A stretch of 64,000 nt of DNA, from NCBI GenBank assembly GCA_029688905.1, contig JARULB010000003.1:124001-188000 (forward strand), given 5' to 3'. Origin of the DNA: Balneolales bacterium ANBcel1. Its GTDB lineage: Bacteria; Bacteroidota; Rhodothermia; Balneolales; Natronogracilivirgulaceae. Both the position numbers and the translations under genes were made by a program. How positions within the stretch are numbered: the stretch's first letter is position 1; every line of letters starts with the position of its first letter. Positions 8,141 through 43,889 of this stretch are shown here, in pieces. Under the pieces are notes generated by a model. The model did not search any database. It was given only the letters and a program-made list of their open reading frames with translations, and was not told the DNA's origin.

Positions 8141-8285
8141 GGCTGATCTGTTGGGGTGGATTCTGTTTTAATATAAATGATCTTGGCTTGCAGCAGTTCC
8201 TGACAGGTGGATGTATATGAACATGGCGTGGTATCTGGCATCAGCGGTATGAGCGAGACTCCAGTATCGGGTGCGCATTGGCGTT

Positions 8286-18347: not shown

Positions 18348-21300
18348 TTATTTCACCAGCATCATTTTTCTGGTTTGAACAAAGCTGCCAGCTTGCATGC
18401 GATAAATATACATACCAGAAGACAGGTTAGAAGCATCGAAATTAACCGAGTGTACTCCAGCCGACTGCTCGGTATTTACCAGAGTAGCAACATGCTGACC
18501 CACAACGTTATAAACGTCGACAGTTACATGTGCTGCTTCCGGAATCTCATAGGAGATTGTAGTAGTCGGGTTAAAAGGGTTCGGGTAATTCTGATTGAGC
18601 TGGTATACATGAGGCTGGAGCGGCTCTTCTTCACCTGAAGTAGGCTCAACGATCCTTACTTCAAGATGATCCACATGAATGATAGCACCATCGTTTCTCT
18701 CCATGTTCAGAGCGACAGCGTAGCGCATTCCATGTTCCTCATCATCGGCATTTGCTGTATGGCGATAAGTATACTCGGTCCATTCGTCAGACAGATCCAC
18801 TTCAACGCCTGGATGTCCCGGGTAACGAGCCCAGCCACCACTCTCAGGAAGTCCGAGGTACAGGTTTGCTCCCCGATCGTTATTGTCAGCCTTTATCCAA
18901 ATGGATACTTCAATCTCATCACCTTCCAGTACGTAGAACGGCTCATTAACCAATTCTACTTCCCAGTCGTTGGTGGTTCCGTTCCAGACACCAAAGTCAA
19001 CTTTCATTGCCTGATCTGCGTCGTAGACTTGATCAGTAACAATTTCGAAAGTGGCATCACCAGGATTAAGGGTCCAGGCCAGTACATCACCTTGCCCTAC
19101 TTCGCCGGGTTCGTCCATTTCAAAACCACCGTTAAAGTTGATCAAGTCACCGAAGGCATGCGGCGGTTGCGGGATAGGTACCACAACTTCAACCTGAGCA
19201 TGGTCAATGTAGATTTCGGCACCGTCATTCGCTGAATGGTTAAGGGCCAAACCTAGTCTCATACCATGTTCTTCATCATCAGCACTTGCTTCATGCAGAA
19301 GTTCATACTGTGTCCATTCTTCTGACAGTTGCATCATCCTGCCACCACCTCCGGTTGCATCAGCATCACCGGGATAGCGAGCCCAGTTACCACTTGCTGG
19401 CAGTCCAAGGAACATATTGGCAATACGCTCATCAGAGTCTGCTCTCATCCAGATACTAGCTCTGATCATGTCACCTTCCTGCACATGGAACGGCTCATTA
19501 ACTGTTTCAACATGCCAGTCATCTGATGTACCACTCCATTCACCGAAGTCAATGAACAAGGCACGATCACCTTGGTAGGCATCTTCAACGATTTCCATTG
19601 TGGCATTGCCTGCCTGGTTGTTAAAGCTCCAATACGGAACATCAACATCATTAACATTGCCGAGGTCAGTGAATTCAAAACCACCATTCACGTTAATGAT
19701 ATCACCAAACGCATGTGGTGGCTCAGGTGGATCCGGAACAACTACTGCTGGAACAATCAGATCGTAGTGGGCAGCATAAAGCTGAGGATTACCCTGAAAT
19801 TCAGCGATAATACCTGTTACATTATGGGGACCTTGAGGAATAGGCTCACCAATCACATCCGAGTCACCAAGATGAGTACGGAATGTAACTGGCTCTTCAA
19901 CAGTGGCATCAAGAATAGAGTAATTTGTTGAAGCGGCAAATTCGCCTTCTTCCTGAAACTCAACTGCTGATACTTTTACCAGACGAGGTTCTCCCACATA
20001 TTCAAGATCTGCAAGTGTTGACTCCCAGTATGGAAGATCGTTATCGGAAGAACTGGGTTCGATATTTTCCAAGGGAAGCAACTGGGCAGCATCACGGAAT
20101 TCACTATACTCAAAAGAAAAACCAGTGATTCCATCTCCACGCTCAAGTCCGGAAAGAATATCGCCGGTATCATCTACAAGAACAGCGCCGGTATTGTCGG
20201 AGAGATAGTGCTGGTTTCTGAAGTTAGGTGCTACAAAGGTAACAATTACTTCATTTGTCAAAATTGCAAAGTCACCAATTTCAGCGTTTTCCAACATATC
20301 TGCAATGGAATCAAATTCTACGAAGTCGATGAAAACATCTCCTCTTTCGAATGTAATGGCGAAAGGTTCATCAGCCCATCTTTCCAATCCATTGGCGGCT
20401 GCCTTTACGGTCCAGAACAAATCAATCTCATCACCTACTTCCAGTCCGGCATCAGCAAGAACATTATCCAGGTCCTGAAGCGTAACTGTAAGCATTTCAT
20501 CAAGTCCGTCATTATTGGAAGCAAGTTCCAAAATAACTTCATCGGAGAAATCATCTGTGGCGTTGAGATACCATGTGTAAGTGACATCATGGTCTGCAAC
20601 TTCAGCTGCTTCCCAAGTGATATCAACTTCCGTATCGGTTGGACCTTCTACAAGTACCGATGCACCATCTTCCGGGCTCAGCAGAGCAAATGCCGAAATC
20701 GGATTAACAAAATTGACAGTAACTTCAGCAGAAGTTTCTGTTACGAAAATGCCATCCGTAACGGAAACGGAAATGGTATAAGGACTATCTTCCGATGTTC
20801 CGAAATCAGCAAACCAGCTGAATTCACCGGTTTCAGCATCAATTTCAGCACCTTCCGGAGCTTCAACAATCGCAAATTCCAGATCTCCGCCATCAGGATC
20901 TTCGGCTTCGTATGTGAATTCCAGCGTCGTATTCTCATCTATGGTTACATCTTCAAGAACAGAAGTAAATTCTGGTGGAGCTGCATCCATAACAGTAACA
21001 GAACCGTTCAGTCCTATGATAGGTACTGCTGTACCGGTATTGTCATAGAATTGAACACTTGTAAAAGTAAGCGGACTGTTATCCACTTCTTCCAAAAGTG
21101 TACCGGTCAAATGAAGCAGTTCATCTCCAGCGCCAAGTGGTGAAGTAAATGCAGCGGAGATTTTTGCCACACCATCTTGAGGCACATTAAATTCCACAAG
21201 GCCACCTTCAGACAATGTTCCAGCTTGTGAAACACCGTCAAACGTTACTACACTTTCATCAAAGTGGAACTCAAGGTCATAGGATACAATATTAAGTTCC

Positions 21301-21872
21301 GAAAGATCATCGGAGTCAATAGCACCTTGAAAACTGTCATTGATATATCCTTCTACATGAGGAAGTTGAATGGCTACCTCAGCTGATTGTACGAAAATAT
21401 CAAACGGTGCAGCTGGGGCGATATCATAAAGGCCGGGTTCTCCCAGATCATTACGGGTAACTTTAAGTCCTTCCGGATTGGCACCCGGAGGTCCAAGTTC
21501 ACCGGTGAAACTGAAGAGAACTCCTTCACCTTCTATAATATTCGAAGAAGCAAAGCTAACTCGGATGGTGTTGTCAGCCGTGATGTTGGATTGAAATAGT
21601 CCACCGGAAGCCAGAGGCCCGGCAACTATGTCATCTGTTTCAAAGGTTAGAAGATCAGCATCAAATTCGATGGCAATATCAAAGTTTCTAACCTCCAGAT
21701 CGCTTAGATCGCTGGTGGTTACATGTACGGTCACCTCGTCACCTGGGCGGCCGGAAATGTCACCTCCAAAATCTATCTCGATATCCTGAGTAACACCGGT
21801 ACTAACGCCCATAAGCATTAAACCTGTCACAAGCAGGATAGAAGTTCGTATTGATTGAAGTAGTTTCTTCAT
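18348..21872 (-). CDS. Large multidomain surface protein: two cohesin-like domains, OB-like and two carbohydrate-binding-like modules, type IX sorting domain
   Basis: The domain order in 1174 residues is: signal peptide (1-28); cohesin-like 1 (about 29-150); cohesin-like 2 (about 165-295); a cadherin/Ig-like repeat (about 300-390, [18 protein letters not shown]); and an FN3-like segment (about 395-500). Then comes a likely OB-fold domain (about 505-690, [17 protein letters not shown]). Two tandem modules of about 160-175 residues (about 715-875 and 890-1065) resemble family 4/9 carbohydrate-binding modules, each opening with FNGGFE or VNGGFE and ending in an aspartate-containing strand. Last is the NYPNPFNP sorting domain (about 1090-1174). 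I saw no catalytic domain and no cysteine. It probably binds polysaccharide or partner proteins at the cell surface. Confidence 0.85.
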
Positions 21873-21964: not shown

Positions 21965-24900
21965 TTACTTGATCAGGGTCATCTTTCTTGTTGTGGAGAA
22001 TGTCTCATTTTCAGATTGAGCAACAATTCTGTAAATGTACATTCCACTTGAGAGGTTAGACAAATCAGCATTGACTGTATGAGTACCGGCATTCATGTTC
22101 TGATCTACCAGTGTGAGTACTCTCTGGCCAATTGAGTTGTAAACTTCAATGGTTACGTCTGCGGCTGCCGGCAACTGATACGTGATGTTAGTTGTCGGGT
22201 TGAACGGGTTCGGGTAGTTCTGGTTGAGAGCAAACTCATCCGGAATTTCCACGATTTCCATTTTTTCCAGTTCGTAACGGCTTTCGTTTACAAAACCTCT
22301 GGCCTGAATACCTGCTGAACTGCTTGCATCTTCCAACTTGAAGACAACAGTTGCGATCTGACCGTTTCTTGCTGGTGTGGCACCGGCAAGGGCAAGTCTG
22401 AACTCACCATCTTCAATGTCGGAACGTGCTGTGATCCATCCTTCGGGAAGTTCAGCAAATTCGACTCTTTCGATGGAAGCCTGATTCAGGTCATAAATAC
22501 CCTGAATATCCAGCGAGTATACGCCAGCTCCTTCGGAGGAAAGCATAAGCGGTACGCTGACAGTTCCTTCTTCTTCGTTGCGGGTCATGTCACCCCATGC
22601 AAGCGAACCGGAACCAATAGACTTGGCTGATGCATCGAACGGAATGGTTACGCCTTCCATTCTTGCAGCATACTGAAGAATGATAGCAGCGTCAAAGCTG
22701 GATACATCACCAGATTGCTTGACATTTGCTACATACTCCTGTACTGCATTGAATTCCACATCACCAACGTTGAATCTCAGAATCTGGGTAGCGTCAAAGG
22801 ACGAGACCAGACCGTCAGCATTTACGTCACCGTAAGCAGGAACTGCAGTGACATCAAATACTTGGGTCACTACTGCCCCAATCTCATCAGTACCAGTAAC
22901 CGTCACAGTTACTGCCTCAGGCTCAATACTGCTTGACAGTACTGTTACCGTGAGAATGTTGTCATCATCAATACTTGCATGAACAACATCTTCATCGGCT
23001 GCAGAAACTTCAAATGCAGCTTCACCGGAACCACCATCAAAGAAGTCAGCCAGGTCGATTTCGACATATTCTGCATCTTGCTGATAATCATCACCGGCTC
23101 TCAGTGTTTCATCATCGATGGTACCAACTGCAACGAAGGTAGCATTTACAGTTACATCAAATTCAACCGTCTCACTTGCTCCGGTCTGATCTGTTCCTGT
23201 AACACTTACTGTTGCTGTACCGACTCCTGTTGTAGTCAGTTCAACATCCATTCCGTCGATATCAGCAGTTACAACATCGGTATCATCGGAAGCTACAACG
23301 ATGTCAATCGGAGATGCACCGCCTGTAAACAGACCTGTTACATCAACGACATATGTATCTGTGAGATTCAATGTCACATCATCAAGTTCACCGGCCATGA
23401 GGGCAGGCTCTACTGTAATGTTGACAATGGTTGCTTCAGTGTCGTTAAGCGCATCGGTCACACCAATGTTGAATGTGGTAGTACCGGGGCTTACGGCATG
23501 GATGGTCAGTGTATCAGCATCGATCGAGTACGTTGCGACATCGTCGTCATAACCAGAGATATCATAGGTATATGTACCTGTTCCACCTTTGAATACACCA
23601 TCGGTGTGAAGCAGTGAGTGGCGAAGTACGACATCTCTTTCCTGACCGGCATTGGCTACAATGTCAGCCGGCTGAGTAGCTTCAAGGTTGGACTTCAGAG
23701 CATAGGTAAAGATGGTTCCATTACCGGCACGAATACCACCCTGTACACTCTGGACGATAACTGTCGGGTGGATATCCGGGAATGTACCGGACTGATAGCT
23801 CTGCAGATACTCATCCGCATCACCTTGAAGTCTCCAGGGGTTATCAACATGGTCTGCGGAGCGACGGATAATTCTCATATCCTCAACATCGGCGGTAACA
23901 CCGGTAGTGGTGTATTCGCTGTAGTTTTCACGCTCGAGTTCCATGTCATATACAAGCGACGGAGACAACGGGCTGGATGTTTTTACATTCCACTTGAAAC
24001 GATCAGGGTAGCGGGCCAGGTCTACACCAGGCTCAACACCATCGGGAACAGGGAAACCATTGGATCCCAACTCAGCAAGGGCGTTGTCCGGATCTACTTC
24101 GCTGTGAGTCGCCGTCATTGTAATTCCACTAGGAATTGCAGAAGGCTGATTGAAAGTAAATGAAACCGGTGCATATGCACTTGCGCCATTTTCAAATTCA
24201 CCTCCAACAGGAAACTCAACACGGTTGGATGCAGTACCAGTACTCGGGAGAGTCTTGGTCACTTTACCAACTACATAGCTGTCTCCAGAGCGTGTAAATC
24301 CTTGATTGGATGTACTTGTATGCGTAAGAACAAGCTGATTATCACCGGTTCTCAGCAAACCATCAACAAAGTGGAAGTTGGAATTGTTTACAGTAAGGTT
24401 ACCACCTGTCAGTTCAGCACCGGCCGGGTTATCCAACGTGACATCCACACCAAGTGTGAGTCCATCAGATGGTACGGCAATTGCCTGCAATTCGGTACCG
24501 GCAAACGACAGGTTTCCAGTTCCGGCTGTACCAACGATTACGCCTGCACTTGTAGCTGTGAAGTCTCCTACAAATGTAAGGGTGTAATCATCGATATCAA
24601 GAACATCACCATCGGCTACTTCAAGATTGGCGAATGTGTAGTCTGCATCAAGAGTGACGGTAATTGATCCCGCAGGAACACCGTTCACCTCTACAGATAC
24701 ATTTCCGCTGACAAGCTCGATATCAGTAGTATAAACTTGCTGATAAACAACTTCGTATTCATCAGCACTGAAAGAACCAGCTCCGACAGCCAGGTTACCG
24801 CCATTCATGATAACTTTACCGCCGTCAGCGACAGAAAGTGCTTCGTCGACAATGTCCAGGTCTCCTACAAGTGTCAGAGTACCATTCACGATGATGTCAT

Positions 24901-27900
24901 CATCCATGGTCACATCAACCTGTACATTAACATCCTGAACAATGTCCGTTGCAGGCACTTCAGGCCCGGTAGTAATACCAGCAGTGGTCGTGTATACCAG
25001 ATGAACAGCATCACCAAAGTGCGGAGCTGTGTTCAACACGGCAGCATTGTTTTGCCTTTCAATGGTAACACCATCGCCGATATGGAGCCTTGAAGCATCG
25101 GCTGCACCGCTGTTGTCGATGTCAAATGTTCCTGATTTAAGTATGAGATTACTTGTTACAGTTACCTCATCATCATCACCAGCAGCTGTAGCAATTTCAG
25201 AACCGTTGACAATCCTGAGGTTGGCGATTTCAAGGTTGTTGTCATCGGTGTCAATGGTTGCATTATCAAGCCAGACATAACCATCGGTCATGGCCAGTGT
25301 GCCCTCTACGTAAACAAGATTGTCGTTAATGTAGAGATTGTTGTCGGCAAGATAGAACGTACCATCTGTGTGGATATAATCCGAACCTGCTGCAACGGTA
25401 AGAATTCTTGTCGTACCATCGTTAGCGAGAGTTACGGTTCCATCCGAGTCTACCTGAAGGTTACCAGTAACGATACGATTGGCATCTCCAAGATCGATGG
25501 TAGCGTCATCACCGGTAAGGTCGACATCATTCGTAACATCCGCGAACAAGTCGGCATCGCCAGAAATGGTAAGCAGTTGGCCACCCGTAAGGTTGGCTTC
25601 TGCAATCAGTTTTCCGCTAACTTCAAGATCGCTAACAAGTACTGATGCGGCTTCAAGCTTTACATAGGGAACATCAGCACCGTCTGCATCAATATTTCCT
25701 CCGGATTCAGCTACCAGGTAGCCACCGTTGGAAGCATAGGATGCATCTGCATGACCCGTCAGCACTGTAGCATTATCTACATTCAGATCAAAGGTATCAA
25801 AGTAAACAGAACCATCTGCACCAACGGTAATCGCTCCGCCGGTAACATCTACATCCGATGCCAGCACTAATGTTGCATCACCACCACCAGCATTGTCTAC
25901 AACGATACCACCTGTTACAAGACCCGTAGAAATTGCTGGATCTGTGTCATCACGATCAATCAAGGCAAGTGTAAGCGAAGCATCTGAGGCATCGTCAATG
26001 GTCACAGCCTGCTGGATCTCCTGGATACCAGAAATGGACACATCAGCACCGCCTACTGCAACAGCGGCATTGATAATATTATTGGAGGCAACAAAAGAGC
26101 CGGATCCACTAACCGTCAGGTTGTCACCTGAAAGCTCGAGGACTACACCTGCGCCTGTGTCGTCAATAAGGCCGTATACCTCGTGATCCACATCATCTTC
26201 TTCAAGCTTGATGGTCAGAGCCGCGCCGCCATCAATAAGAATAGCTCCTTCCTTAACAAGAAGTGATCCTTCAACTTCCAGATCCTGAGCTGCACCGTCA
26301 CCTACCAGAGTTGCACCATCGTTGATAGTCAGGTTACCCTTGATAGTTACCGGGCTGACATTGGGAAGGTTCAGAACATCATCCGTCGTGGAAACGGTTA
26401 CGTTGACCACTTCCGGAGTCAATTCGCTGCCAATAGTCTCGGCACCTGCCAATGCACCTCTGTACTCGAGGTCATAGTTGTTGTTCAGACCGTTAAATGT
26501 ACCACCGGCCACTTCGTCAACTCCATCAGTTGATGCAGGGTAGACTACTACTACGGCATCATCACCGACAGGCGACAGGTCGGAAGCATAATTTGTACCA
26601 TCCACATTCAATGTTCCTGAGATAAGAACAAGCTGATCGGTGAATGTAAGCGCAGTTACCGCATTCAGTCCAACGGTCGGGGTGTTACCGGATCCCGCTG
26701 CAATAAAGAGGTTTCCGAATTCACCGTCACCGGTGATATCAAAACTAGTCGGCAATGCATCACCACCCTGTACTACCTTGTTGAGTGCACCGTCAACACC
26801 ACCGATATACACACCACCAGTAGTTGTATTGGTATAGTCGCCATTAATAGCAAGGCTGCCACCATCGCCATTCATAATCAGGTTAAAGCCCTGGAAATCA
26901 ACGGAGGTTCCCGCCGTAATTTCAGCATCTCCCTCGGAACGAATGGAGCGGTTAACAGTAATGATTCCACCGTTGTTGTCAAATGTGACATTTGCCACCT
27001 GGAAGTTGTCACCTACACTGATACTCTGAGGTGCAGCACCGTTGAAAGCCAGTTCGGAACCAGCATCAGCCGTAAATGTTCCTGCGGTACGGGTGAAGTC
27101 TGATTCAATATTCAGAACAGCAGTAGCATCAAGGTCAGCAGCACCGGATGAAAGCACAAAGTCACCTTCTGCAGTAAATGCAACACCGTCAATATCAAGA
27201 GTTCCACCGGAAACGGTAGTTGCTCCTTCAGCAGTAGTTGCGATAATCACGTTCAGTGTACCCGCGGTGACTTCAATATTATTAACATCAATAGCGGCAT
27301 TCTCAAATGTGGTAGTATTATCAGCATTATTCACCTCAACATTACCGAGGGTACCGCCATTAAAGCTGTTATTTCCACCTGTGACATAAAGCTTGCCACT
27401 TCCCTTGATTTCACCACCGTCTGTCACGTGTGCGTTAGCGCCGTCAAGAGTCAGGGTATTGGATCCAAGAAGAATACCATCACCAGCACCTGTACCAGCG
27501 TTGGTCAGCACACCCTCCACGGTAAGATCCGCAGTGAGTGTCAATGTAGAAGAAACATTATCATTGGAGACATTTCCTTCAAAGGTAGCGGCACCAATGG
27601 TAAACTCTCCGCCACCATTGTTTACAAGGTTTCTAAACACACCGGAGGAAGCAACAAACTCACCGGCAGCGCCATTCACCAGGTCTACCTCAAACTCCAT
27701 GGTAAAGTTTCCAGCTGCATCCTGTACATCATCGGCTGTAACAGCTCCAATCTCAACAAGACCGCCAGCACCATTGGAAACAAAAATAACCGACGTCACA
27801 TCGGCAGTCACATCATTGGAGGTCAATACCAAGTCACCGATCTTGAGATCACCACCAGCAGCATTTCCGATAAAGGGAGTGCCAGCTAAATAAGTCTGAG

Positions 27901-28972
27901 CTACATCGTCTGCGTCCAGTGTTACAGTGCCTTCAACTGTCAAGCTTCCAGCTGCTGCCAGAGTAATTTCTGATCCGTTAGTGGCATGCAGATCTCCGGT
28001 TACCAGAACATCGCCGGTGTTGTTGTTGATAAAGTCGGATCCACCATTAAGAGTGACGTTGCCGTTTACTGTCAGATCACCATCTGCTACGACGTAGTCG
28101 GCATCCACCTCAAGAGCACCGACTTCCACATCACCATCAGCGTGCGTGTTGTCACCGGTAGTAGTCAGTTTCCCGCTGACAGTCAGGTCATCTGTTGTAT
28201 TAGTAAATTCGCCAACAGAAAGATCTCCGCTCAGAGTAACATCCCCTGCGGTTTTTACGAAAGCACCTGTCGTGGTGATACTTGCAGGAAAATCAATAGA
28301 TGCACCGGCTCCGGAAAGATTCACCGTTATCGATCCACTTCCATAATCGCCGTACTCAGCTTCAGGTCCGGCGGCAGCATCAGCGTCTGTATAGACCAAG
28401 GAAAGATTGGCAGCTTTTTGAGGAGCCGCACCAGTGAACGCGCCATCTTCCTTGATGGAGATGGTAGTATTGTCTGCCAGTCTCCAGGAGCTTTCAGCAT
28501 CAATATTGACATTACCGGATGTCAGGGTCAGAGACGTACTTTCTTGCTGCAGATAGGTTCCGTCCGCTGAGAGGAATGTCAATTCACCATCGATATCAAC
28601 TTCAACGGTCGCATCTTGCAGCGTGACTATTGACTGAACGCCTGTCTCCAACTGGATCGTCAATGACTCCAGGTCATTGTCCGCATTAGAGGACGCCTGG
28701 ACAGTCAGGTTACCACCATCACCATCGGCGCCATTGTAAGCACTGCCAAGAATAATGAGCGTACCGCCATCATCCAGCAGTTCCAGACCCTTGTTGATTG
28801 TAGCAACAGGAAGAGTCTCGGAACCATCATTTATGTTCGAGCCGTTCGTGGCGTCGACATAAATGGTATTCTGAGCCAGCGCCGTTCCTGCGCCGATCGC
28901 CACGGTAAACACAAACGCAACGAACGCGTAAGCAAATGACCGTAGCCACCTGTTTGGTATTAAAGTTTTCAT
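21965..28972 (-). CDS. Giant beta-helix surface protein with dockerin-like, cohesin-like and type IX sorting domains
   Basis: At 2335 residues this is the largest gene. A signal peptide (1-34, ending GTALA) is followed by an [10 protein letters not shown] opening typical of pectate-lyase-like right-handed beta-helix proteins. About 1800 residues of Val/Asp/Thr/Gly/Asn-rich solenoid repeats come next, then two or three Ig/BIG-like domains (about 1840-2045). A dockerin-like module follows (about 2046-2117): a complete calcium loop [12 protein letters not shown] and a second, degenerate copy with the same VSSFDA core. A cohesin-like sandwich (about 2118-2241) and the NYPNPFNP sorting domain (2242-2335) end the protein. 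I saw no catalytic domain and no cysteine. The ATG at 28972, with GAGA upstream, is preferred over the one 25 codons earlier. Confidence 0.88.
22622..22837 (-). other. Dockerin-like calcium-loop region within the giant surface protein
   Basis: This segment encodes two copies of a 12-residue loop of the dockerin/EF-hand type, joined by a helical linker. Copy 1 has Asp, Asn, Asp, Gly and Asp at loop positions 1, 3, 5, 6 and 12, as needed to bind calcium. Copy 2 has Asn, Lys and Ser at positions 1, 3 and 5 and keeps Gly6 and Asp12, so it probably binds calcium poorly or not at all. Both share VSSFDA and a following hydrophobic helix. In known dockerins the same two-copy arrangement docks onto cohesins. 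It directly precedes a cohesin-like domain in the same chain. Confidence 0.75.
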
Positions 28973-29761
28973 ATGTATCTCTTTAAATGATTGATTTTTG
29001 AAACGTGTCTTTCCCACGTCGTTGGTTTTTGAAGCTGTTAGCATCATGGATGTACTTTTTGGTTGTTGTTTTGCTCGAAAGGCCTGTATTCCATATTACC
29101 ATAATGAATCGTATGAGACACCCCAGGCGCCCATTGCGAATCCGTTAGCATGTATGACCATGATTATCAATGAGTTCAGTTAATTATGCCAATGCGCCCA
29201 AAATCACTATTTACGATTCACATTAAAAGAATTTCGTGTCAATTTAAACAGTAATCACGTACTGCACAAGGCAAAACTCAATTTTTTCTAATTTACCAGC
29301 AACAGTAAACATAGCAAAAAAAACGGGAAATAAAACTTTTTTATCCGTCGTATCCCTTTTTTCTGAGTCAGTCAGGCAAGCATTTTGCTTTTTTGCCTTT
29401 TCCCCCGATCTCTGTTTATCCATTGCAAGATTGTGCAAAAAAAACATCGAATGCGTCAAGTTATCTTTCCTTTTCTTCAGACGCAATACATTCGTGAAAT
29501 TGAAACAATGCATCTTTTTAGTCCAAAATTCGAAATGCGTCCAGCCTTTGAGTTTTTTACATTTCCGTACAGTCTTCGAGATTTGTCCTTTGCTTATCGG
29601 GTAATTCACTCATTTCTTAACAGATATTTTTTTGTATTTAATTGATGATACGCGAAGTTTGAGCCTGTTCCGTCCAATTTTTCTGCAACATCCTCCGAAC
29701 ACCGTTTAATGGTTTTCTCATTTATTGCCGGTGTTGCGGGCTCACTTATAAACCGCTAACC
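28973..29761. other. Long AT-rich divergent intergenic region
   Basis: These 789 bases separate the giant surface protein (minus) from the FAD/Fe-S oxidase (plus), so both promoters should lie here. A minus-strand frame at 29244-29609 (121 codons) and a plus-strand frame at 29385-29645 (86 codons) overlap each other. Both have odd composition, and I judge neither to be a gene. The element ATGCGTC occurs at 29451-29457 and 29535-29541. Together with GACGC at 29480, the first copy forms an imperfect inverted pair. The long A and T tracts could bend the DNA. I see no tRNA, riboswitch or terminator. Confidence 0.5.
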
Positions 29762-34320: not shown

Positions 34321-35142
34321 TCAGCCGGCTTCCAATTCGGACTGCCTGAAGCTGGACGCTTCCGATTCTCCCTTCTTCTCTTCCCCAAGGTGCTTTTGCA
34401 TTTCAAAACGAAGCTTTTGAATCGTCATGCCGCTGGTGAGGGAGCCGTTTTGCGCTACCGAGATCCTGCCGGTCTCTTCGGAGACTACCACCACCAGCAC
34501 GTCATTCACTTCGCTGATGCCCAGCGCTGCCCTGTGCCGTGTTCCGAATACGGTGGATATGTTCGGATTCTGGCTGATGGGCAGATAGGCGCTCGCCGCC
34601 ACAATTTTGTTATGCCGGATGATGACGGCCCCGTCATGCAGCGGAGTATCGTTGTTAAATATGGTCAGGAGCAATTCGCTGCTCACATCCGCATCGATGG
34701 CCACACCTTTATCCACCAGGTCGTTCAGGGTGGCACCCTTCGCAAAAACGATAAGTGCGCCGGTTTTCGAACGGGAAAGTGACTTCACGGCATCAATCAC
34801 CTCATCAATAACCGAAAAAGAACCGCCGCGATCGAAAAACCGGTAGAGGCTTGTGTTTTCTCCAATATTATAGAGCAGCTTCCGGATTTCCGGCTGGAAG
34901 ATAATGATCACGGCCAGAATCCCGACATCCAGCAGCCTTCGCAGTACAAAATTTATGGTGGTGAGGTCGAACATGCTCACAATGGCGTTCACACCGAAAA
35001 CGATGATCAGGCCAATGACGACAGGCACGGCGAAAGAACCCCGAATCCAGCGATAGAGCAAAACAATAACGGCCGCTATTATCAGCGTTTCGATCAGGTC
35101 CTTTAAGCCAAATTCTAAAAATCCGATTGGCAAGATTACCAC
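34321..35142 (-). CDS. cdaA: Diadenylate cyclase (CdaA family)
   Basis: CdaA makes the second messenger c-di-AMP from two ATP, controlling potassium and osmolyte balance and wall homeostasis. Three N-terminal membrane helices (about 13-30, 38-58, 70-85) precede a coiled region and the DAC domain, which keeps both key motifs: DGA (residues 170-172) and RHR (202-204, in GTRHRAAL). At 273 residues it has normal length. The start is a GTG. The gene follows folP by 79 bases on the same strand, an arrangement I know from the Bacteroidota lineage. c-di-AMP fits the salt-adapted lifestyle suggested by the antiporter. No gdpP-type phosphodiesterase is visible in this window. Confidence 0.95.
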   Translation of the reverse strand: MVILPIGFLEFGLKDLIETLIIAAVIVLLYRWIRGSFAVPVVIGLIIVFGVNAIVSMFDLTTINFVLRRLLDVGILAVIIIFQPEIRKLLYNIGENTSLYRFFDRGGSFSVIDEVIDAVKSLSRSKTGALIVFAKGATLNDLVDKGVAIDADVSSELLLTIFNNDTPLHDGAVIIRHNKIVAASAYLPISQNPNISTVFGTRHRAALGISEVNDVLVVVVSEETGRISVAQNGSLTSGMTIQKLRFEMQKHLGEEKKGESEASSFRQSELEAG

Positions 35143-36600: not shown

Positions 36601-37809
36601 TCACTCTGCGAGCATGTGACGAACTGCCTCCAGGGAGCCGTCGTTTTCCGCAGGGTCAAGCCCCAGAATGTGACAGATCATCTCGTAAATATGAATCAGT
36701 TCAAACGCTTCCACCTGCATCCCTGATTTGAAATCCGGTCCGTCCGCCAGGAAAAACGTGCGCATTTCCGGCTCACGGTGGTCCCAGCCGTGATTTCCGG
36801 CAAGTAATCCGCGCCTTTCGAAAAACGAGCGGCTGGTAATAGACCAGGGGAGCTCGGCGACCATGATAATTTCCGGGGTGCGTCGATGATTTCCGATGCG
36901 GTACTCATCGGGGAGCTCGTCCCGGTAATAGACGCGGTAGTGCGACTCTGCCTCTTTAAGGAGGCGGTACACCTCTTCCGTTTTACCCTCATCCGGACGA
37001 ATCATGGAGACGGGTCCCCAGCCGATGACCCTCACATCATCCAGGTCGATGATCTCATCCAGAAAAATTACTTTATCATCGGATGTGGCGGCCATACCAT
37101 GGTCCGATACGATGACGATGTTGGTGGTCTCGCGGAGGCCGCTGCGTTCCAGCTCCGCAATCAGATAGCCCATGTCATCATCCATGTCGGCTATGGCTTC
37201 GGTCACTTCGATACTATGCGGACCATGACTGTGACCCCGGGAATCCAGGCGGCTGAAATAGAGAGTGATGAAATCAGGACGGCTCTCATCTTCGAGGGTC
37301 AGCCAGGTGATAACCGAATCTATCCGCTGCTGATGGGGCAAGGAGCTGTCGTAGCTGTTCCACCGGGTTGGCCGCACTCCAGCAATTTCGGCTTCGCTTC
37401 CCACCCAAAACATGGATGCGGTCCGCATTCCCTGATTTTCCGCAGTAACCCAGAGCGGCTCTCCCTCATACCAGCGCCCTTTTACGATTTCGTCCCGGTT
37501 GCCGAGACTGAACGTGGCTTCCCATTCCGGATCGTACATGCTGTTGGAAAGGATTCCGTGATTTTCGGGATAAAGGCCGGTAACGATGGAATAGTGATTG
37601 GTGAAGGTCAGTGTTGGGAAAACCGGAATAAGATAATCCGCAAGCACTCCGCTGCCGGCCAATGCGTCAAAGTTGGGGGTTTCTGTGCGCTCCAGATACT
37701 CCGGCATGAAACCGTCGACAGAAATTAGAATGACCGGGTTGGTTTCCGCGTGTACGGGAATATAGCTGATCAGAATGGCGAGCGCCGCCGCGAGTACTCT
37801 TTTTTTCAT
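36601..37809 (-). CDS. Ectonucleotide pyrophosphatase/phosphodiesterase-like alkaline-phosphatase family protein
   Basis: The mature enzyme belongs to the type I phosphodiesterase/nucleotide pyrophosphatase family. After a signal peptide (about residues 1-20, ending VHA) it has the metal and nucleophile region VILISVDGFMPEYL and FPTLTFTNHYSIVTGLYPENHGI (nucleophile Thr in PTLTFTN). It also has the second metal sites in SDHGMAATSDD and NHGWDH. It should act in the periplasm or outside the cell, hydrolysing nucleotides or other phosphodiesters. The substrate is not defined by sequence. The ATG at 37809 is chosen because the longer frame adds about 107 residues without family character before the signal peptide. 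Confidence 0.9.
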   Translation of the reverse strand: MKKRVLAAALAILISYIPVHAETNPVILISVDGFMPEYLERTETPNFDALAGSGVLADYLIPVFPTLTFTNHYSIVTGLYPENHGILSNSMYDPEWEATFSLGNRDEIVKGRWYEGEPLWVTAENQGMRTASMFWVGSEAEIAGVRPTRWNSYDSSLPHQQRIDSVITWLTLEDESRPDFITLYFSRLDSRGHSHGPHSIEVTEAIADMDDDMGYLIAELERSGLRETTNIVIVSDHGMAATSDDKVIFLDEIIDLDDVRVIGWGPVSMIRPDEGKTEEVYRLLKEAESHYRVYYRDELPDEYRIGNHRRTPEIIMVAELPWSITSRSFFERRGLLAGNHGWDHREPEMRTFFLADGPDFKSGMQVEAFELIHIYEMICHILGLDPAENDGSLEAVRHMLAE

Positions 37810-38005: not shown

Positions 38006-39250
38006 TCAGCCGGGCAGCCGGAAGGTGTATCCCTCTCTGGCCAGTTCGGCGTGAATACCGGTACCAACAACGGCTTTTTCGAGCCTGTCGGAGACGTTGT
38101 CCAGGTACTGATCGTCGGAATCGGGGTCAAAGTGTATGAGCATCAAGTGCTTGACCCTGTTTTTTGTGGCTCTCTCAAGAGCGATTTCCCAGGCGGAATG
38201 GCCCCAGTTTTTTTTCTTTTCATACTCTTCGAGACTATACTGGGCATCGTGTATCAGCACATCGGCATCCGCCACAAACCGGTCGAACTGCTTCAGGAAC
38301 GGGTCCTCCCGCTCGTTGGAATCTACATTGATTGCACTCAGCTCGTTATCCGGACAGAAGACGATCACTTTTTTCCCGATTCGGACTTTGTAGATGGCTG
38401 TTTCCACCGGATGGTTGGCGGACATATACTGGATGCTGTAGCCGTCATAGTGCTGTACCGGGTGCGACTGCGTATGATACTCCAGCCGCGCCTGCAACAT
38501 TTGGGATGTCACCGGGAAATAGGTATAGGACATCTGGTCCAGCAGCACCTCCTTGGTATTTCCAGCCATTTGCGGCGGCATGTGGATATCGAAACGGTTA
38601 TCCGGTGAAAAAAGCGGTTTGAAGAAGGGAAAGCCCTGGATATGATCCCAATGGGCATGAGTAAAGAATATCCGTCCGCTCATGGGCTCGCTGGACTTTG
38701 CCAGTTCGTTGCCAAGAGAGCGGATACCGGAGCCTGCATCAAAAATGAGGAGCTTTTTTTGTCCCGGTATGATGATTTGCACACACATGGTGTTCCCGCC
38801 GTAGTTCACAAACTTGTTTCCGGCGCAGGGTGTAGATCCACGCACCCCCCAGAACCGGATATCGATGGAATCCCCCAGAATCTCATCGATTTTGTCGGCG
38901 AACAAACCGTAGTCCATTGGCTTGTGGAAGAAATCGGTGACGCCTGATGCCATGGCGATCTCCTTTTCCACGGGATAGTCCCTGGTGGTAAGCACCAGTA
39001 TCGGAATTCCGTTCAGGTCTTCGGTATTCTTGAGGAGCTTGCAAAGATGGAGTCCGTTGCCGTCGGGGAAATGGAGGTCCATGACGATAAGGTCCGGCAT
39101 AACCTCCCTGACTTTGTCAAGCGCCCCCTCGTAGCTGTTGTGATGATGGAACGTATACCCTTTTTTCATGAGAAAAGACCCGATCAGCTCACAGAGCGTG
39201 ATGTCGTCTTCAATCATGAGAATGGTAATATTCTTATAGGGATCTTCCAT
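38006..39250 (-). CDS. Response regulator receiver fused to a metallo-beta-lactamase-fold hydrolase
   Basis: Residues about 8-125 form a CheY-type receiver with phospho-acceptor D58 (in LIVMDLHFPDG), the acidic pair in MIEDD, and conserved K110. Residues about 130-414 form a metallo-beta-lactamase-fold domain that opens with IRFWGVRGSTP. It includes YGGNTMCVQI, DAGSGIRSLG and the zinc motif THAHWDH (197-203), then IHDAQY and a late HFDP. Relatives of this MBL type include PhnP-like and class II cyclic-nucleotide phosphodiesterase-like hydrolases, so a nucleotide substrate is possible but not shown. It follows the DUF349 gene on the same strand after an 86-base gap. No histidine kinase is adjacent. 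The ATG at 39250 is preferred over the TTG one codon earlier. Confidence 0.88.
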   Translation of the reverse strand: MEDPYKNITILMIEDDITLCELIGSFLMKKGYTFHHHNSYEGALDKVREVMPDLIVMDLHFPDGNGLHLCKLLKNTEDLNGIPILVLTTRDYPVEKEIAMASGVTDFFHKPMDYGLFADKIDEILGDSIDIRFWGVRGSTPCAGNKFVNYGGNTMCVQIIIPGQKKLLIFDAGSGIRSLGNELAKSSEPMSGRIFFTHAHWDHIQGFPFFKPLFSPDNRFDIHMPPQMAGNTKEVLLDQMSYTYFPVTSQMLQARLEYHTQSHPVQHYDGYSIQYMSANHPVETAIYKVRIGKKVIVFCPDNELSAINVDSNEREDPFLKQFDRFVADADVLIHDAQYSLEEYEKKKNWGHSAWEIALERATKNRVKHLMLIHFDPDSDDQYLDNVSDRLEKAVVGTGIHAELAREGYTFRLPG

Positions 39251-39336
39251 CAATACTGTTTCTCTCTGGCTCGATTACGTAAAGCCGGGCTAATCCGTCC
39301 AGTTCGATGATCTGTCTGCCGGAGGCCGCGCAGAGA

Positions 39337-41553
39337 CTACTCCTCCATTTTTTGCCTCAAATCCTCGAGTTTCTCCAGCTTCGCATTCAGCTTGTTCTGT
39401 TCTTTGTCAATTTTTTTCTGGATGTCGTCAATCAGTGCATTTCCTTTTCCACCGGGGTTGATAAAGGTCATGGTATCCTTGTATCGCATGATTTCCTCAT
39501 GCATTTTATCACACTCTTTCTTCAGCTTAAAGTACTCGTCACGCGCGCCTTTGCCGGCCCGGCCTGAAACCGGCTCTTTGCCGGTTGATTCCGAACGGCC
39601 CCGGGTGGTGGCACGGAGTTTGTCGTAAAACGTGTCACATGCGGCCTTGTAATCCGAATCGAGTCTGGATTTCTTCTTTATCGGCACAAAGCCGATTTTT
39701 TTAAACTGTTCCTGCAGTTCCTTCACCTGTTCCAGGGCCTCTTCGACATTCTCCTGCCCGGCCAGCTTTTCGATTTCAGAGACAATTCCCCGCTTCTTCT
39801 CGTAATTGGCCTTCTGATCTTCACGGACGACCCGGTAGTGCTTGCGTCTGTTGTCATAAAACGCATCCATCGCCTTCTTGAACCGGCTCCAGAGCTTGTT
39901 GGATTTCCGGCGCGATACCGGACCGGTCTCCTTCCATTGCTTCATCAGGTTCTCAAGCTCGGCTGAGGTCTCATTCCAATTGGTGCTCTCTTTCAGCTCT
40001 TCCGCTTTTTCGCACAAGGCTACCTTTTGTGCAAGGTTTTCCTGCTCCTGACGGCGGATTACATCCTGATTCTCACTTTTGATCTTGTTGAACTTCCGGG
40101 TAGCCTCGTTAAACCGCTCCCAGAGCTCATCGTTTTTTTCCTTGGGTACGGCTCCCGTATTTTTCCAGTTCTTATGGAGGTTGTTCATTTCCCGCACAGC
40201 CAGGGCGAGGTCTTTTTCCTCCGCCAGTGCCTCCGCTTTCTCGCACATCCGGATTTTTTTCTGGATGTTCTTTTTGGTCTGTTTCCGGAACTTTTCGTTG
40301 TGCTCGTATTTCCTGTTGAAAAACTCGTCACGAACGGATTTGAACTGCTCCCAGACCCCTTCGGATTGCTCCATGGGAACATGCCCGATTTTTTTCCACT
40401 GTTTCGAGAGCAGTTCCATTTCGGCATCTCTCTGGTCCCAGTTCTCGGTATCCGGTCCGAGCGCCGCCACAAGCTGCTTCATTTTGTCCAGTACGGCCAG
40501 CTTGCCTGCAAGATTCGCCTCCTCCTTTTCGGCTTTTTTGACGAGGAAAGCGACTTTGTTCTCATTAAACTGTTGCAGCAGATCGGCAAACCTCTTCTCC
40601 TGGGCTGAGGCCTCGTCCCCGCCGGGAAGGTCTTTGATCTCCTCCCATCGGCTGCTTATGGAATTGACCTGCTTGATGGCCTGCCATTTCTTTTTGTTGA
40701 TAACCTCCTGCAACTGTTCCAGAAGCCTTTCCCGCTTTTCCAGGTTGGCCTTTTTCCGTTCCTTCTTTTTCTGATGCCAGGCTTCCTTTCTTTCGGTGAA
40801 CTGCTTTCTGGCATCATCCCGCTCTTTCAGCAAATCGGCATATCCCGGTTCGGAAGCCAGTGATTCATCCGCCGCCACAATATCCTGCCATTTTTCCTGA
40901 ATCTGTTCGAAGCCGGCCTGTCCGTGCATCCAGTCGTTCTGTCTTGCCAGGTCACGGGCATGAGAGGCAAGAGCAGCCAACGGGGCAAGGCTCTCAGGCA
41001 AGTCTTCACGTCTCTTCTCTTGCGGCTCCGTCCCGGAGCTTTCCGCCGGTTCTTCCGCGCTTTCGGGTTTTCCGTCAGCACTCGCAGCCGGGGCCTCCGC
41101 ACTTTCCGAAACCTCAGCAGTACTCTCCTCCGGCTCTGAAGTAACTTCAGATGCCTTCGAGTCATTCTCTACCGGCGCGTCAGCGTTTTCCGTCAATTCT
41201 GCAGGTTTTTCGGATGTCTCTTCCGGCTCGGACTTCTCCTGATCCGGCTGCGATGCAAGCCCCTCAACTTTCCCAAGCAATGCCTCAAAATCTCCAATGG
41301 CCTTCGCCGACAGGATCTCTTCGCGCAGCTGTGCCAGACTGGCCTTTAAATCGTCATTTATCGTCACCTGCTTCAACCGAAGCAATTCGGTATTCACATA
41401 CTTCTCAAGTTCCGTAAAACGATTTTCAAAGTAAGTAACAGCCTCATCAGCAGCATCCGGTTCAACACGAGCGAGTTCCCTGCCCGAAAAATTTGCACCA
41501 TCCTTCTGTCGGATGCGTCCGTCGTCTGTCACCGTCACATGTTCTCTTTCCAT
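39337..41553 (-). CDS. Large DUF349 coiled-coil protein
   Basis: About 738 residues, mostly alpha-helical and very rich in Lys, Glu and Gln. A short N-terminal region is followed by an acidic, low-complexity linker (about 105-190, rich in Glu, Ser, Ala and Pro). Then come at least five DUF349 repeats of about 70-75 residues (about 255-680), each with a W-x-x-x-G/I-x-x-x/VP pattern such as SKQWKKIGHVPM and MKQWKETGPVSR. A C-terminal coiled coil ends the protein. The function of DUF349 proteins is not settled. It is likely a cytoplasmic structural or nucleic-acid-associated protein. The start used is the ATG four codons in, as the frame otherwise begins with GTG. Confidence 0.88.
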   Translation of the reverse strand: MEREHVTVTDDGRIRQKDGANFSGRELARVEPDAADEAVTYFENRFTELEKYVNTELLRLKQVTINDDLKASLAQLREEILSAKAIGDFEALLGKVEGLASQPDQEKSEPEETSEKPAELTENADAPVENDSKASEVTSEPEESTAEVSESAEAPAASADGKPESAEEPAESSGTEPQEKRREDLPESLAPLAALASHARDLARQNDWMHGQAGFEQIQEKWQDIVAADESLASEPGYADLLKERDDARKQFTERKEAWHQKKKERKKANLEKRERLLEQLQEVINKKKWQAIKQVNSISSRWEEIKDLPGGDEASAQEKRFADLLQQFNENKVAFLVKKAEKEEANLAGKLAVLDKMKQLVAALGPDTENWDQRDAEMELLSKQWKKIGHVPMEQSEGVWEQFKSVRDEFFNRKYEHNEKFRKQTKKNIQKKIRMCEKAEALAEEKDLALAVREMNNLHKNWKNTGAVPKEKNDELWERFNEATRKFNKIKSENQDVIRRQEQENLAQKVALCEKAEELKESTNWNETSAELENLMKQWKETGPVSRRKSNKLWSRFKKAMDAFYDNRRKHYRVVREDQKANYEKKRGIVSEIEKLAGQENVEEALEQVKELQEQFKKIGFVPIKKKSRLDSDYKAACDTFYDKLRATTRGRSESTGKEPVSGRAGKGARDEYFKLKKECDKMHEEIMRYKDTMTFINPGGKGNALIDDIQKKIDKEQNKLNAKLEKLEDLRQKMEE

Positions 41554-41777
41554 CAAAATCACTACTTAAACTGGTTTAAATATTTATCAGATTGCTTTAT
41601 ATAACGAAATAACTGCAATAATATCACTTGCAAATCCAGCAAATTGTCATGCGAACCGGATTAAGAACTCTGCCTATAAAACAAAACCATCCACAAGCCT
41701 GCAAATTATAGAGCGTAATAGAATAATAAAAATCACAGCGATAACAAACAGGATGGACGGCAATAGAGTGATATAAA

Positions 41778-42563
41778 CTACTTTTTCATGGCCAATTCAC
41801 CGATCATTAGTCCGATTTTTATGGGAATCCATTTACTGAGCAGCAAGGGAATTCGTAGAAGGGGTCTTGAGAGAGTCATGCCCTGATCCGCGGCTAGGCC
41901 TTTCAGACCTCTGAGGGCAACCTCGTCAGCCTGCTGCAGTCCCCTGAAAGCTGACTTCGCCTTGTCAACTCCGGCCACATCCATAAACTCGGTGTTCACC
42001 GGTCCGGGGCAGAGTACGCTTACACGCACACCGGTGTGCTTCAGCTCATGCCACAGGCTCCAGGATAAATTGATTACGAACTGCTTTGTCGCAGAATAGA
42101 CACCAAAATAGGGGATCGGCAGAAAACCGGCCATGGATGCGACATTCAGTACACCGCCGTGGTTGCGCTCCAGCATGCCGGGAAGCAGGGTGCGGGTCAG
42201 TGTCACCAGCGAGTTCATATTCACCTGCATCATTTGCTCATAGGTTTCCAGCGGAGCATCCTCAAATCGGCCGTTATACCCGAAACCGGCATTATTGATG
42301 AGGATGTCAACGGAGATCCCCTTTTTGTCGAGCTGGTCACTTAGTAACCGGGCACCGTCGGGGTCGGAGAGATCAGCCGCAATCACGGTTACCTCTGCGT
42401 CATGCTCCTCACGCAACTCGGCCGCGAGCTGCTCCAGGCGATCCTTGCGGCGGGAAGTGATGATCAGTTCGGCACCCCAGATGGACAGATACCGGGCGAA
42501 AGCAACACCGATACCCGAGGAGGCACCGGTTACAAGAACCTTTTTGCTTTTAAAATAATCCAT
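41778..42563 (-). CDS. Classical short-chain dehydrogenase/reductase
   Basis: The product is a Rossmann-fold NAD(P)-dependent oxidoreductase. It carries the cofactor motif TGASSGIG near the N-terminus, NNAGFGYNGRF, the catalytic Ser region (VASMAGFLP) and the YSATK catalytic Tyr-Lys pair, followed by the PG segment (CPGPVNTEF). Basic residues after beta-2 (TSRRKDRL) suggest NADP preference. At 261 residues it has usual length. The C-terminal LLLSKWIPIKIGLMIG is hydrophobic and may touch membrane or lipid, as in relatives acting on fatty-acyl or retinal-like substrates. The substrate is unknown. The frame also has a GTG three codons upstream. Confidence 0.9.
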   Translation of the reverse strand: MDYFKSKKVLVTGASSGIGVAFARYLSIWGAELIITSRRKDRLEQLAAELREEHDAEVTVIAADLSDPDGARLLSDQLDKKGISVDILINNAGFGYNGRFEDAPLETYEQMMQVNMNSLVTLTRTLLPGMLERNHGGVLNVASMAGFLPIPYFGVYSATKQFVINLSWSLWHELKHTGVRVSVLCPGPVNTEFMDVAGVDKAKSAFRGLQQADEVALRGLKGLAADQGMTLSRPLLRIPLLLSKWIPIKIGLMIGELAMKK

Positions 42564-42725
42564 ATCTTTCACGTGAAGAGTAAAGGAATTGTCTGTTTTG
42601 GGTTTCCCGAAAAGTAACCTTTTTTGTTTCCATTCAGTTCAAATTATTGTAAGATAGGCCGGCATTTGATTTTATTCGCAGTTTCTTCCGCAATGTATTA
42701 CCGGATCATCATCCGATACCTTTAA

Positions 42726-43889
42726 ATGAGCACGCATCACCGAGAATTTACCATCCTTGTAGTAGAAAGCAACCAACTGAACCTGGAGTTGCTGCTCACC
42801 TTCTTCATGCAGAGCGAGTATCGGATCGCGGCTGCAACAACGGGTATCAAAGCGTTGAAGATTTGCGAGGAAATCACACCCGACCTGATCTTGATGGATG
42901 TCCAGATGCCTGAAATGGACGGGTTTCAAACGGCGGGAAAACTGCTCAAGAATCCCAAAACCCAGGATATTCCCATCATCTTCACCTCTACGCTCACCGA
43001 CAGCAATATCATTCTTAAATGCTTTGAAAGCGGAGGGATCGACTACATCAGTAAGCCGTTTAAGAAAGCGGAGCTGCTTGCCAGGATACATACGCACCTC
43101 TCTCTGAAAATTCTGCGGGAACAGCTGCAGACCGACCGCGATCACCTGACCGCGATTTTGCACAATATGCTTCCAATGGGGCTGATTAAAAGTCTGAGGA
43201 ACGGCGAATTCCCAAAACCGGTATCGGTGGACACTGCCGCCACCCTGTTTACCGACTTCAAGAACTTCAGCAGTATTACACAAAAGCTGGGTTCGAAGAG
43301 AAGCGTTGATCACCTCAACCAGATCTATTACGCCTTCGACGAGATTGTGGAAGCATTCGGTATGGAGCGGATAAAAACCATTGGTGATGCGTACTTCGCC
43401 GTTGGCGGAATCAATACCCATCCTTCCAACATATACCTCTACCCGATTCTGGCCGGACTGAAGTTCAAGGAGTTTGTGGCCTACTACACTGAGCATAAAA
43501 CCGATGCCGACTGGCAGCTTCGTATCGGCTTTGCCGTCGGACCCGTGACCTCCGGTGTGATCGGCTACCAGAAGATCGCCTATGATGTCTGGGGCGATAC
43601 GGTGAACCTGGCAAACCATCTGGAACATGTGGGCCGGCCGGGCTATGTCGTTATACCGGAATTTATCTATGACAAGGTCCGGGATTTTGTGACCGTGTCG
43701 TTCATGGACACCATCCACTCCAACCCCTGGGGAGAGTTGAACATCTACTTCTGCTCCGGGGTCACCGACAATCTGCCGGAACCACTAAAAGATATCATGC
43801 AGGAAATGGATCCCGAGAAACTCTTCAAAAAATCCTCCAGCAAGAAGAGCCTGCTTAAAAAGATCTTCGAGATTCCGGGCTCATCCTGA
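42726..43889 (+). CDS. Response regulator receiver fused to a class III nucleotide cyclase
   Basis: The 387-residue protein has a receiver domain (about 8-125; phospho-acceptor D58 in LILMDVQMPEMDG, K110 in SKPF; only one acidic residue, E14, where receivers usually have two). A coiled linker leads to a class III adenylate/guanylate cyclase domain (about 165-345). Metal Asp residues are present (D177 in LFTDFKNFS and D221 in KTIGDAYF), as are the substrate-selecting K217 and Asp in YDVWGDTVN, which favour ATP, and Asn294. The transition-state Arg expected in VNxAxR is replaced: the segment is VNLANH (His298). Activity may therefore be weak or altered. It stands divergent from the SDR gene and converges with mscS. 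Confidence 0.9.
   Translation: MSTHHREFTILVVESNQLNLELLLTFFMQSEYRIAAATTGIKALKICEEITPDLILMDVQMPEMDGFQTAGKLLKNPKTQDIPIIFTSTLTDSNIILKCFESGGIDYISKPFKKAELLARIHTHLSLKILREQLQTDRDHLTAILHNMLPMGLIKSLRNGEFPKPVSVDTAATLFTDFKNFSSITQKLGSKRSVDHLNQIYYAFDEIVEAFGMERIKTIGDAYFAVGGINTHPSNIYLYPILAGLKFKEFVAYYTEHKTDADWQLRIGFAVGPVTSGVIGYQKIAYDVWGDTVNLANHLEHVGRPGYVVIPEFIYDKVRDFVTVSFMDTIHSNPWGELNIYFCSGVTDNLPEPLKDIMQEMDPEKLFKKSSSKKSLLKKIFEIPGSS

Follow-up and report, generated by a model that had tools for sequence, protein, structure and literature searches.

The proteins closest to the one described here share its parts in different combinations. The atypical class II cAMP phosphodiesterases, Rv1339, CpdA of C. glutamicum and YhfI of B. 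subtilis, have in common with it the PF12706 domain, the [T/S]HxHxDH motif and a YhfI-like fold. PF12706 together with [T/S]HXHXDH is given as the mark of this class in the paper on Rv1339 (PMC9293780), and YhfI is described as having a strong preference for cAMP and cGMP over cCMP and cUMP (PMC9117128). Unlike these proteins, the enzyme studied here is fused to a response-regulator receiver, shows about 18% identity to YhfI in a structural alignment, and has an activity that is predicted. A Lactamase_B domain is also described as acting as a cAMP phosphodiesterase in PdeE (PMC4758236).

In Dictyostelium, RegA carries a receiver on a cAMP phosphodiesterase and ACB carries one on a cyclase (PMC11988041). 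This control logic resembles that of the two genes discussed below, but the catalytic domain of RegA is of class I and not of the metallo-beta-lactamase (MBL) type, and the organism is a eukaryote. The same source presents Dictyostelium GbpA and GbpB as MBL-type (class IIb) cyclic mononucleotide (cNMP) phosphodiesterases with cNMP-binding domains (PMC11988041). Their combination of parts resembles the cNMP-binding genes found near some relatives of our gene (family f17 and genome G044); the likeness is one of description only, and no receiver is reported for them. PorX is a response regulator with a zinc phosphodiesterase as its output, reported to hydrolyse oligoadenylates (PMC11320123), but that output belongs to the alkaline phosphatase superfamily and not to the MBL fold.

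We analysed a 64-kb stretch of the genome of Balneolales bacterium ANBcel1, called the window here, which encodes a receiver fused to an MBL-fold hydrolase (REC-MBL). Judged from its sequence, the gene is best read as a receiver-controlled cNMP phosphodiesterase, a reading to which we assign a probability of about 50%.

The REC-MBL gene and its domains

The host genome measures 3.3 Mb, and REC-MBL lies on its contig C3. Its coding sequence gives 414 residues from an ATG, which agrees with the starts of several homologues; the in-frame TTG one codon upstream would give 415, and residue numbers are counted from this TTG. The initial annotation had proposed a receiver fused to an MBL hydrolase, and both domains are indeed found above their Pfam cut-offs with intact motifs (Table 1). 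Response_reg covers residues 11-116, and Lactamase_B_2 (PF12706) covers residues 171-375 with 43.7 bits against a cut-off of 27. The receiver retains the acidic residues at positions 15-17, Asp59, Thr89 and Lys111-Pro. The features that define the receiver class are all present: the fold, the acidic pair, the phospho-acceptor Asp, the Thr/Ser and the Lys. The MBL domain retains H199, H201, D203, H204, H281, D302, H352 and H374.

With orthologues at E values up to 1e-40 in 90 of the 128 genomes examined from the order, REC-MBL is not a chance open reading frame. The closest named relatives among the matches listed are mostly Balneolales metagenome-assembled genomes (MAGs) labelled CSSed. A second REC-MBL in the host genome was sought and not found, the other 14 protein-search matches covering the receiver part only. 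The output had also been called rare, which is partly right. A literature search aimed at such proteins returned none presented in a title or abstract, and the portions available of PMC3411652, PMC8304167, PMC4758236, PMC4618731 and PMC5847659 show no REC-MBL protein; in sequence records, however, the architecture occurs in at least six phyla.

Table 1. Features at and around the REC-MBL locus (positions in the window)
Feature	Position	Strand	Basis or remark
REC-MBL coding sequence	38006..39250	-	ATG; in-frame TTG at 39253 (38006-39253)
Receiver domain, residues 11-116	38906..39223	-	Pfam PF00072 E 1e-17, motif residues, KdpE-like fold
Phospho-acceptor Asp59 codon	39077-39079	-	receiver motif
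MBL-fold hydrolase domain, about residues 129-415	38009..38869	-	PF12706 E 3e-11, fold matches
HAHWDH motif of the MBL domain	38642-38659	-	conserved ligands
DUF349-repeat protein, directly upstream of REC-MBL	39337..41562	-	five PF03993 stretches
Short-chain dehydrogenase (SDR), between REC-MBL and cyclase	41778..42572	-	Pfam; conserved block
REC-class III nucleotide cyclase	42726..43889	+	Pfam; adjoins the SDR gene in six family genomes
Type I phosphodiesterase/nucleotide pyrophosphatase family (PDE1), downstream	36601..37809	-	Pfam; conserved block
CdaA-type diadenylate cyclase (c-di-AMP synthase family), no partnership claimed	34321..35142	-	Pfam; conserved block

Fold of the MBL domain

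An AlphaFold2 model of REC-MBL, built on an alignment of 36 related sequences, had a mean pLDDT of 88.8 and a pTM of 0.72. The model was compared with known structures by VIA-align and also with Foldseek. In VIA-align, residues 7-128 matched the KdpE receiver (Z 20.9, rmsd 1.2, 119 residues aligned). The MBL part, residues 129-415 approximately, matched RNase Z best (2cbn; Z 28.9, rmsd 2.4, 250 aligned), ahead by 1.7 Z units of YhfI (6kns; Z 27.2, rmsd 2.3, 236 aligned), and then PhnP (3g1p; Z 24.1, rmsd 2.8, 236 aligned). A PhnP-family diphosphatase (6b9v) gave a Z of about 24 and Apyc1 (7u2s) a Z of 20.5; the Pfam lists hold no Apyc1 model. The domain had been likened earlier to PhnP and class II phosphodiesterases. 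A phosphodiesterase-type fold is supported by these matches, but PhnP is not the nearest of them.

RNase Z is the closest fold and shares with the window MBL the metal-site pattern and a GHS motif, and RNase Z (TIGR02651) is also the top NCBIfam model for REC-MBL. The score of 70.2 bits is nevertheless far under the cut-off of 292.95. REC-MBL and five relatives were aligned with the RNase Z of the host, minus the N-terminal part of the latter. All six lacked the tRNA exosite arm, an insert of about 49 residues between the His of the third motif and the bridging Asp, the motifs being named as is usual for RNase Z. The host enzyme is encoded elsewhere (C2:466116-466994) and scores 320.7 bits. 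Identity with RNase Z was therefore ruled out on the score, the missing tRNA-binding arm and the separate RNase Z gene.

Typical class II phosphodiesterases (PDEase_II, PF02112) gave no listed match up to E 10 for four family members in a search in which weak matches were mostly filtered. Both sequence marks of the atypical class are present in the window MBL, namely PF12706 and the motif THAHWDH. On fold and motif alone, cNMP phosphodiesterases are not distinguishable from the other enzymes with a PF12706 domain.

The DUF349 neighbour and a possible role in RNA metabolism

REC-MBL is part of a block, CdaA-FolP-ferredoxin-PDE1-MBL-DUF349-SDR-MscS-Dps-RluD-TPR, that recurs whole or in part across the order. 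Two of the loci, L030 and L034, are truncated at the ends of their contigs. In 21 of the 23 order loci fetched, at least the DUF349 gene adjoins the MBL gene; it does not at L050, and L060 stops at a contig end. In a larger set of distinct order loci, limited to those with 300 bases or more upstream, 63 of 64 have DUF349 upstream of the MBL gene and no more than 448 bases away from its frame; L050 is the exception. The presence of DUF349 there is independent of whether a receiver or a cyclase is present. No neighbour of the MBL gene is more constant in the order than the DUF349-repeat protein, and the two have no known joint function. Elsewhere in the window, a 2360-residue open reading frame (21965-29047) adjoins one of 1174 residues (18348-21872).

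This constancy bears on the weightiest rival explanation, in which the enzyme would be a receiver-gated nuclease or oligonucleotide phosphodiesterase that acts with the DUF349 protein on RNA, in connection with ribosomes or mRNA, and the cyclase would be incidental. The DUF349 protein MSMEG_2731 of M. smegmatis is described as binding RNA, DNA and ribosomal protein S1 (PMC3348880). The closeness of the RNase Z fold with its GHS motif and the oligoadenylate hydrolysis reported for PorX also favor an RNA substrate. On the other hand, the tRNA-binding arm is missing, and some relatives outside the DUF349 context are accompanied by cyclases and cNMP-binding proteins, as described below. DUF349 was also found upstream in none of the 35 REC-MBL loci of other phyla that had room for it among the matches listed. 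On balance we consider the RNA role unlikely, and the co-conserved DUF349 partner makes it directly testable.

A linked receiver-cyclase

The initial annotation had placed a receiver-cyclase about 3.5 kb away, and a REC-class III cyclase is encoded at that distance, counted from position 39250. The same linkage, 3.4-3.7 kb from the MBL gene and beside SDR, was found in six genomes (G000, G001, G004, G006, G007 and G008). In the first four of these, the REC-cyclase stands reversed in the interval from SDR to MscS and is the only PF00211 match of the genome; a cyclase that close would occur by chance with P of about 0.003 to 0.004 per genome, the four cases probably going back to a single event. 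G008 has the REC-cyclase likewise between SDR and MscS, although its contig holds only a short end of MscS, and in G007 it is beside SDR with MscS not detected. For these two genomes, which have more cyclases, P is 0.011-0.019. The SDR-MscS interval contains no REC-cyclase in G005, G009, G012, G014 and G017.

Across the 128 genomes of the order, the REC-cyclase was found at E values up to 1e-60 in 11; the match in one of them, G082, contains an in-frame stop. Every one of these 11 also contains the MBL gene, against a base rate of 90/128. The MBL gene does not depend on the cyclase: 79 genomes of the order have its orthologue and lack this REC-cyclase. The two genes are on different contigs in G023, G026, G031 and G082. 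In G020, REC-MBL starts 2.05 kb into its contig, behind DUF349, and the cyclase lies less than 200 bases from the end of another contig, in orientations that fit linkage of the two.

Any class III cyclase match (PF00211) is absent from 9 of the 19 genomes with an intact REC-MBL, which comprise G020 and 18 of f1, the family of the window organism. The nine are G002, G005, G009, G011, G012, G013, G014, G015 and G017. Most are incomplete MAGs, but with G005 at 97% completeness, gaps in the assemblies are unlikely to account for all of these absences. As possible class IV substitutes, CYTH proteins were sought in eight of the nine (all but G015) and, among the f1 genomes with a class III match, in G000 only; they were found in six of the eight and not in G000. 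When five of the eight CYTH proteins were scanned, two matched the class IV cyclase model TIGR00318 below its cut-off and three gave no match.

One position is occupied by Arg, a residue with a role in class III cyclases, in 10 of 12 aligned sequences, but by His in the window cyclase. G001 has Glu at this position, and G004 and G006 keep the Arg. The receiver of the window cyclase has an eroded acidic pair (ESN). From these two changes, the cyclase of Balneolales bacterium ANBcel1 may be weak. The linked cyclase of G008 has Asn at the phospho-acceptor position of its receiver. The two-sided cyclic-nucleotide circuit suggested in the initial annotation is plausible.

Cyclases and cNMP-binding genes beside relatives in other Rhodothermia families

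The MBL of L050 was used to search 244 genomes of the class, and relatives were found in 131. Outside the order there were 43 matches in 41 genomes, of which 40 matches from 38 genomes were taken further (G200, G210 and G222 were left out). Together with four f4 loci they made a neighbour census of 44 loci (553 kb) in 11 contexts. The census of cyclases was prompted by the context of G028 and G022, of which L050 in G028 was noticed during neighbour counting. At L050, a CHASE2-class III cyclase has its stop at 7516, and the MBL gene, which encodes no receiver, runs from 7534 to 8406 on the same strand. The CHASE2-cyclase is the only PF00211 match in G028 and in G022. The pairs span L050:5204-8406 (G028) and L203:5460-8626 (G022).

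In family f14, the MBL gene of G161 shares 4 bases with an overlapping REC-cyclase gene, and in G162 and G163 a cyclase lies directly beside the MBL gene. A receiver-less relative that overlaps a REC-cyclase gene spans L218:7522-8394. In family f17, 9 of 10 loci have a cNMP-binding gene within 1.3 kb of the MBL gene, and 5 of 10 have a cyclase within 6.3 kb. One f17 locus, L221, has the order REC-cyclase, 1147-residue open reading frame, cNMP-binding protein, AI-2E-type permease and MBL. Genome G044 of family f4 has a cNMP-binding protein, a permease and the MBL, with the cNMP-binding gene at 1.3 kb. Clusters of cNMP-binding protein, AI-2E-type permease and MBL are seen at L221:2-8390, at other f17 loci and at L204:6175-8856, the Pfam assignments being for L221 and L204 only.

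Cyclases were present in 10 of the 44 loci against 0.35 expected from genome densities, and in 3 of the 11 contexts (P 0.003); without the G028/G022 context that had prompted the census, P is 0.038. The cyclase and cNMP-binding models were seeded from the same loci (E <1e-4), and the expected numbers come from Pfam counts at E up to 0.001. cNMP-binding genes were present in 12 of the 44 loci against 0.56 expected, again in 3 of the 11 contexts; because they were first seen in the contexts that scored, the P of 0.014 is descriptive only. Within the census, contexts f9, f10, f11, f13, f18, f19 and G036 contained neither kind of gene, G044 contained no cyclase, and G028/G022 contained no cNMP-binding gene.

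With cyclases and cNMP-binding proteins as neighbours in several related lineages, a 3',5'-cNMP is the likeliest candidate substrate. These neighbours also bear on a second rival, that the enzyme cleaves another small phosphodiester or pyrophosphate (such as one like that of PhnP, a 2',3'-cyclic phosphate or a compound derived from c-di-AMP) and that the proximity of the cyclase is a coincidence of gene order. PF12706-type folds serve varied substrates, as the matches to 6b9v and 3g1p illustrate, the conserved block itself includes a CdaA-type diadenylate cyclase, and REC-MBL is retained even where the genome has no match to a class III cyclase. Yet four cyclase-linked arrangements (f1, G028/G022, f14 and part of f17) are hard to put down to chance, and we regard such a substrate as somewhat less probable than the RNA role.

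Proposed mechanism

A receiver-controlled cNMP phosphodiesterase could work as follows. A histidine kinase encoded at an unlinked site would phosphorylate Asp59 and so alter the activity of the hydrolase; a simple motif scan of the 64-kb window saw no histidine-kinase-like open reading frame. Phosphorylation would probably act through a receiver-driven rearrangement of a dimer. The output would be an MBL phosphodiesterase with a binuclear metal site, probably zinc. It would belong to the RNase Z/YhfI type but lack the tRNA-binding arm, and its two metals would cleave the phosphodiester. The substrate is most likely a 3',5'-cyclic mononucleotide, cAMP or cGMP. In the six genomes with the adjoining REC-cyclase, cyclase and hydrolase would set the level of the messenger from opposite sides. 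What we observe are the domains, their intact motifs, the fold of the model, the conservation of the neighbourhood and the cyclases and cNMP-binding proteins beside some relatives; we infer the metal, the substrate, the direction of control, the kinase and the physiological pairing.

If this is true, an MBL-type cNMP phosphodiesterase joins the known outputs of two-component regulators, and a bacterial system would exist in which both the making and the breaking of a messenger are receiver-controlled.

REC-MBL proteins in other phyla

A scan of named records listed the best 80 of 403 relatives. Among these matches, at least 37 loci outside Balneolota encode a REC-MBL of similar length, in Rhodospirillales and other Proteobacteria, Desulfobacterales, Neomarinimicrobiota, Nitrospirota and Nitrospinota. 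Asp59 is kept in 35 of the 37 listed proteins and Lys-Pro in all 37. The phospho-acceptor Asp is replaced by Glu in L110 and by Asn in L139, both alphaproteobacterial.

A cyclase beside REC-MBL as a general rule was rejected. A first tblastn count of cyclases at these loci gave 0, and the final count was one among the 37 listed loci (459 kb) against 1.3 expected from the cyclase density of 23 of the 37 genomes, each with cyclases of its own. The cyclase link is therefore a Rhodothermia pattern and not a general one. The single case is L119 of Rhodospirillaceae, where a class III cyclase (minus strand, upstream of 5262) is divergent from and adjoins REC-MBL; this adjacency may be due to chance, the genome having 15 cyclase matches. 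At L128, a cNMP-binding gene is 1.7 kb upstream of REC-MBL.

Fate of the receiver in the order

The 107 distinct proteins compared include 76 of fused length and 31 without a receiver. The fused-length proteins have 20 intact receivers and 19 decayed ones, and the remaining 37 are the other-phylum proteins among the matches listed. HxHxDH, H281 and D302 of the MBL domain are kept in all 76. The intact receivers, from f1, f2 and one G110 contig, have Asp59, Thr89 and Lys-Pro in 20 of 20 and the acidic pair in 19 of the 19 in which that stretch was sequenced. In the decayed receivers, Lys-Pro and the two acids at positions 15-17 are kept in none of the 19, and Asp59 is kept in 15. The loci with decayed receivers are L084-L089, L097, L103, L153-L159 and L161-L171, some of which are copies of each other.

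In the MBL tree, 18 of the 19 proteins with decayed receivers fall in one clade, which is sister to 26 receiver-less rows; the other is from G036. The listed other-phylum proteins form one clade. Long branches (G028 and G036) make the deeper order unsure. In a tree of REC domains, the receivers of the Balneolota and other-phylum MBL proteins group together against 24 other receivers with an SH-aLRT of 83, which is suggestive of one old fusion. Helped by this weak cross-phylum grouping, the simpler view is that an ancestral fusion lost its receiver; a gain in f1 and f2 would be the alternative. In either direction, the order offers a natural series for the gain or loss of phospho-control, with intact, decayed and absent receivers on the same orthologous enzyme.

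A passive receiver on its way to loss, on a constitutive hydrolase, would agree with the 19 decayed and 31 receiver-less proteins, but the complete conservation of the phosphorylation residues in f1, f2 and the G110 contig makes it very improbable. The receiver-controlled cNMP phosphodiesterase can also be placed in a wider scheme, in which a bacterial pair like ACB and RegA sets one cNMP from both ends, the MBL is one of an uncharacterised Rhodothermia family associated with cyclases and with proteins that bind cNMPs, and the receiver was lost stepwise in sister lineages. This whole scheme is tentative, and we hold it to be somewhat unlikely in all its parts together.

The MAG G110 contains both an intact-receiver copy (L160, G110:C251) and a decayed copy (L159, G110:C94), each on a short contig; this double copy is possibly a result of contamination.
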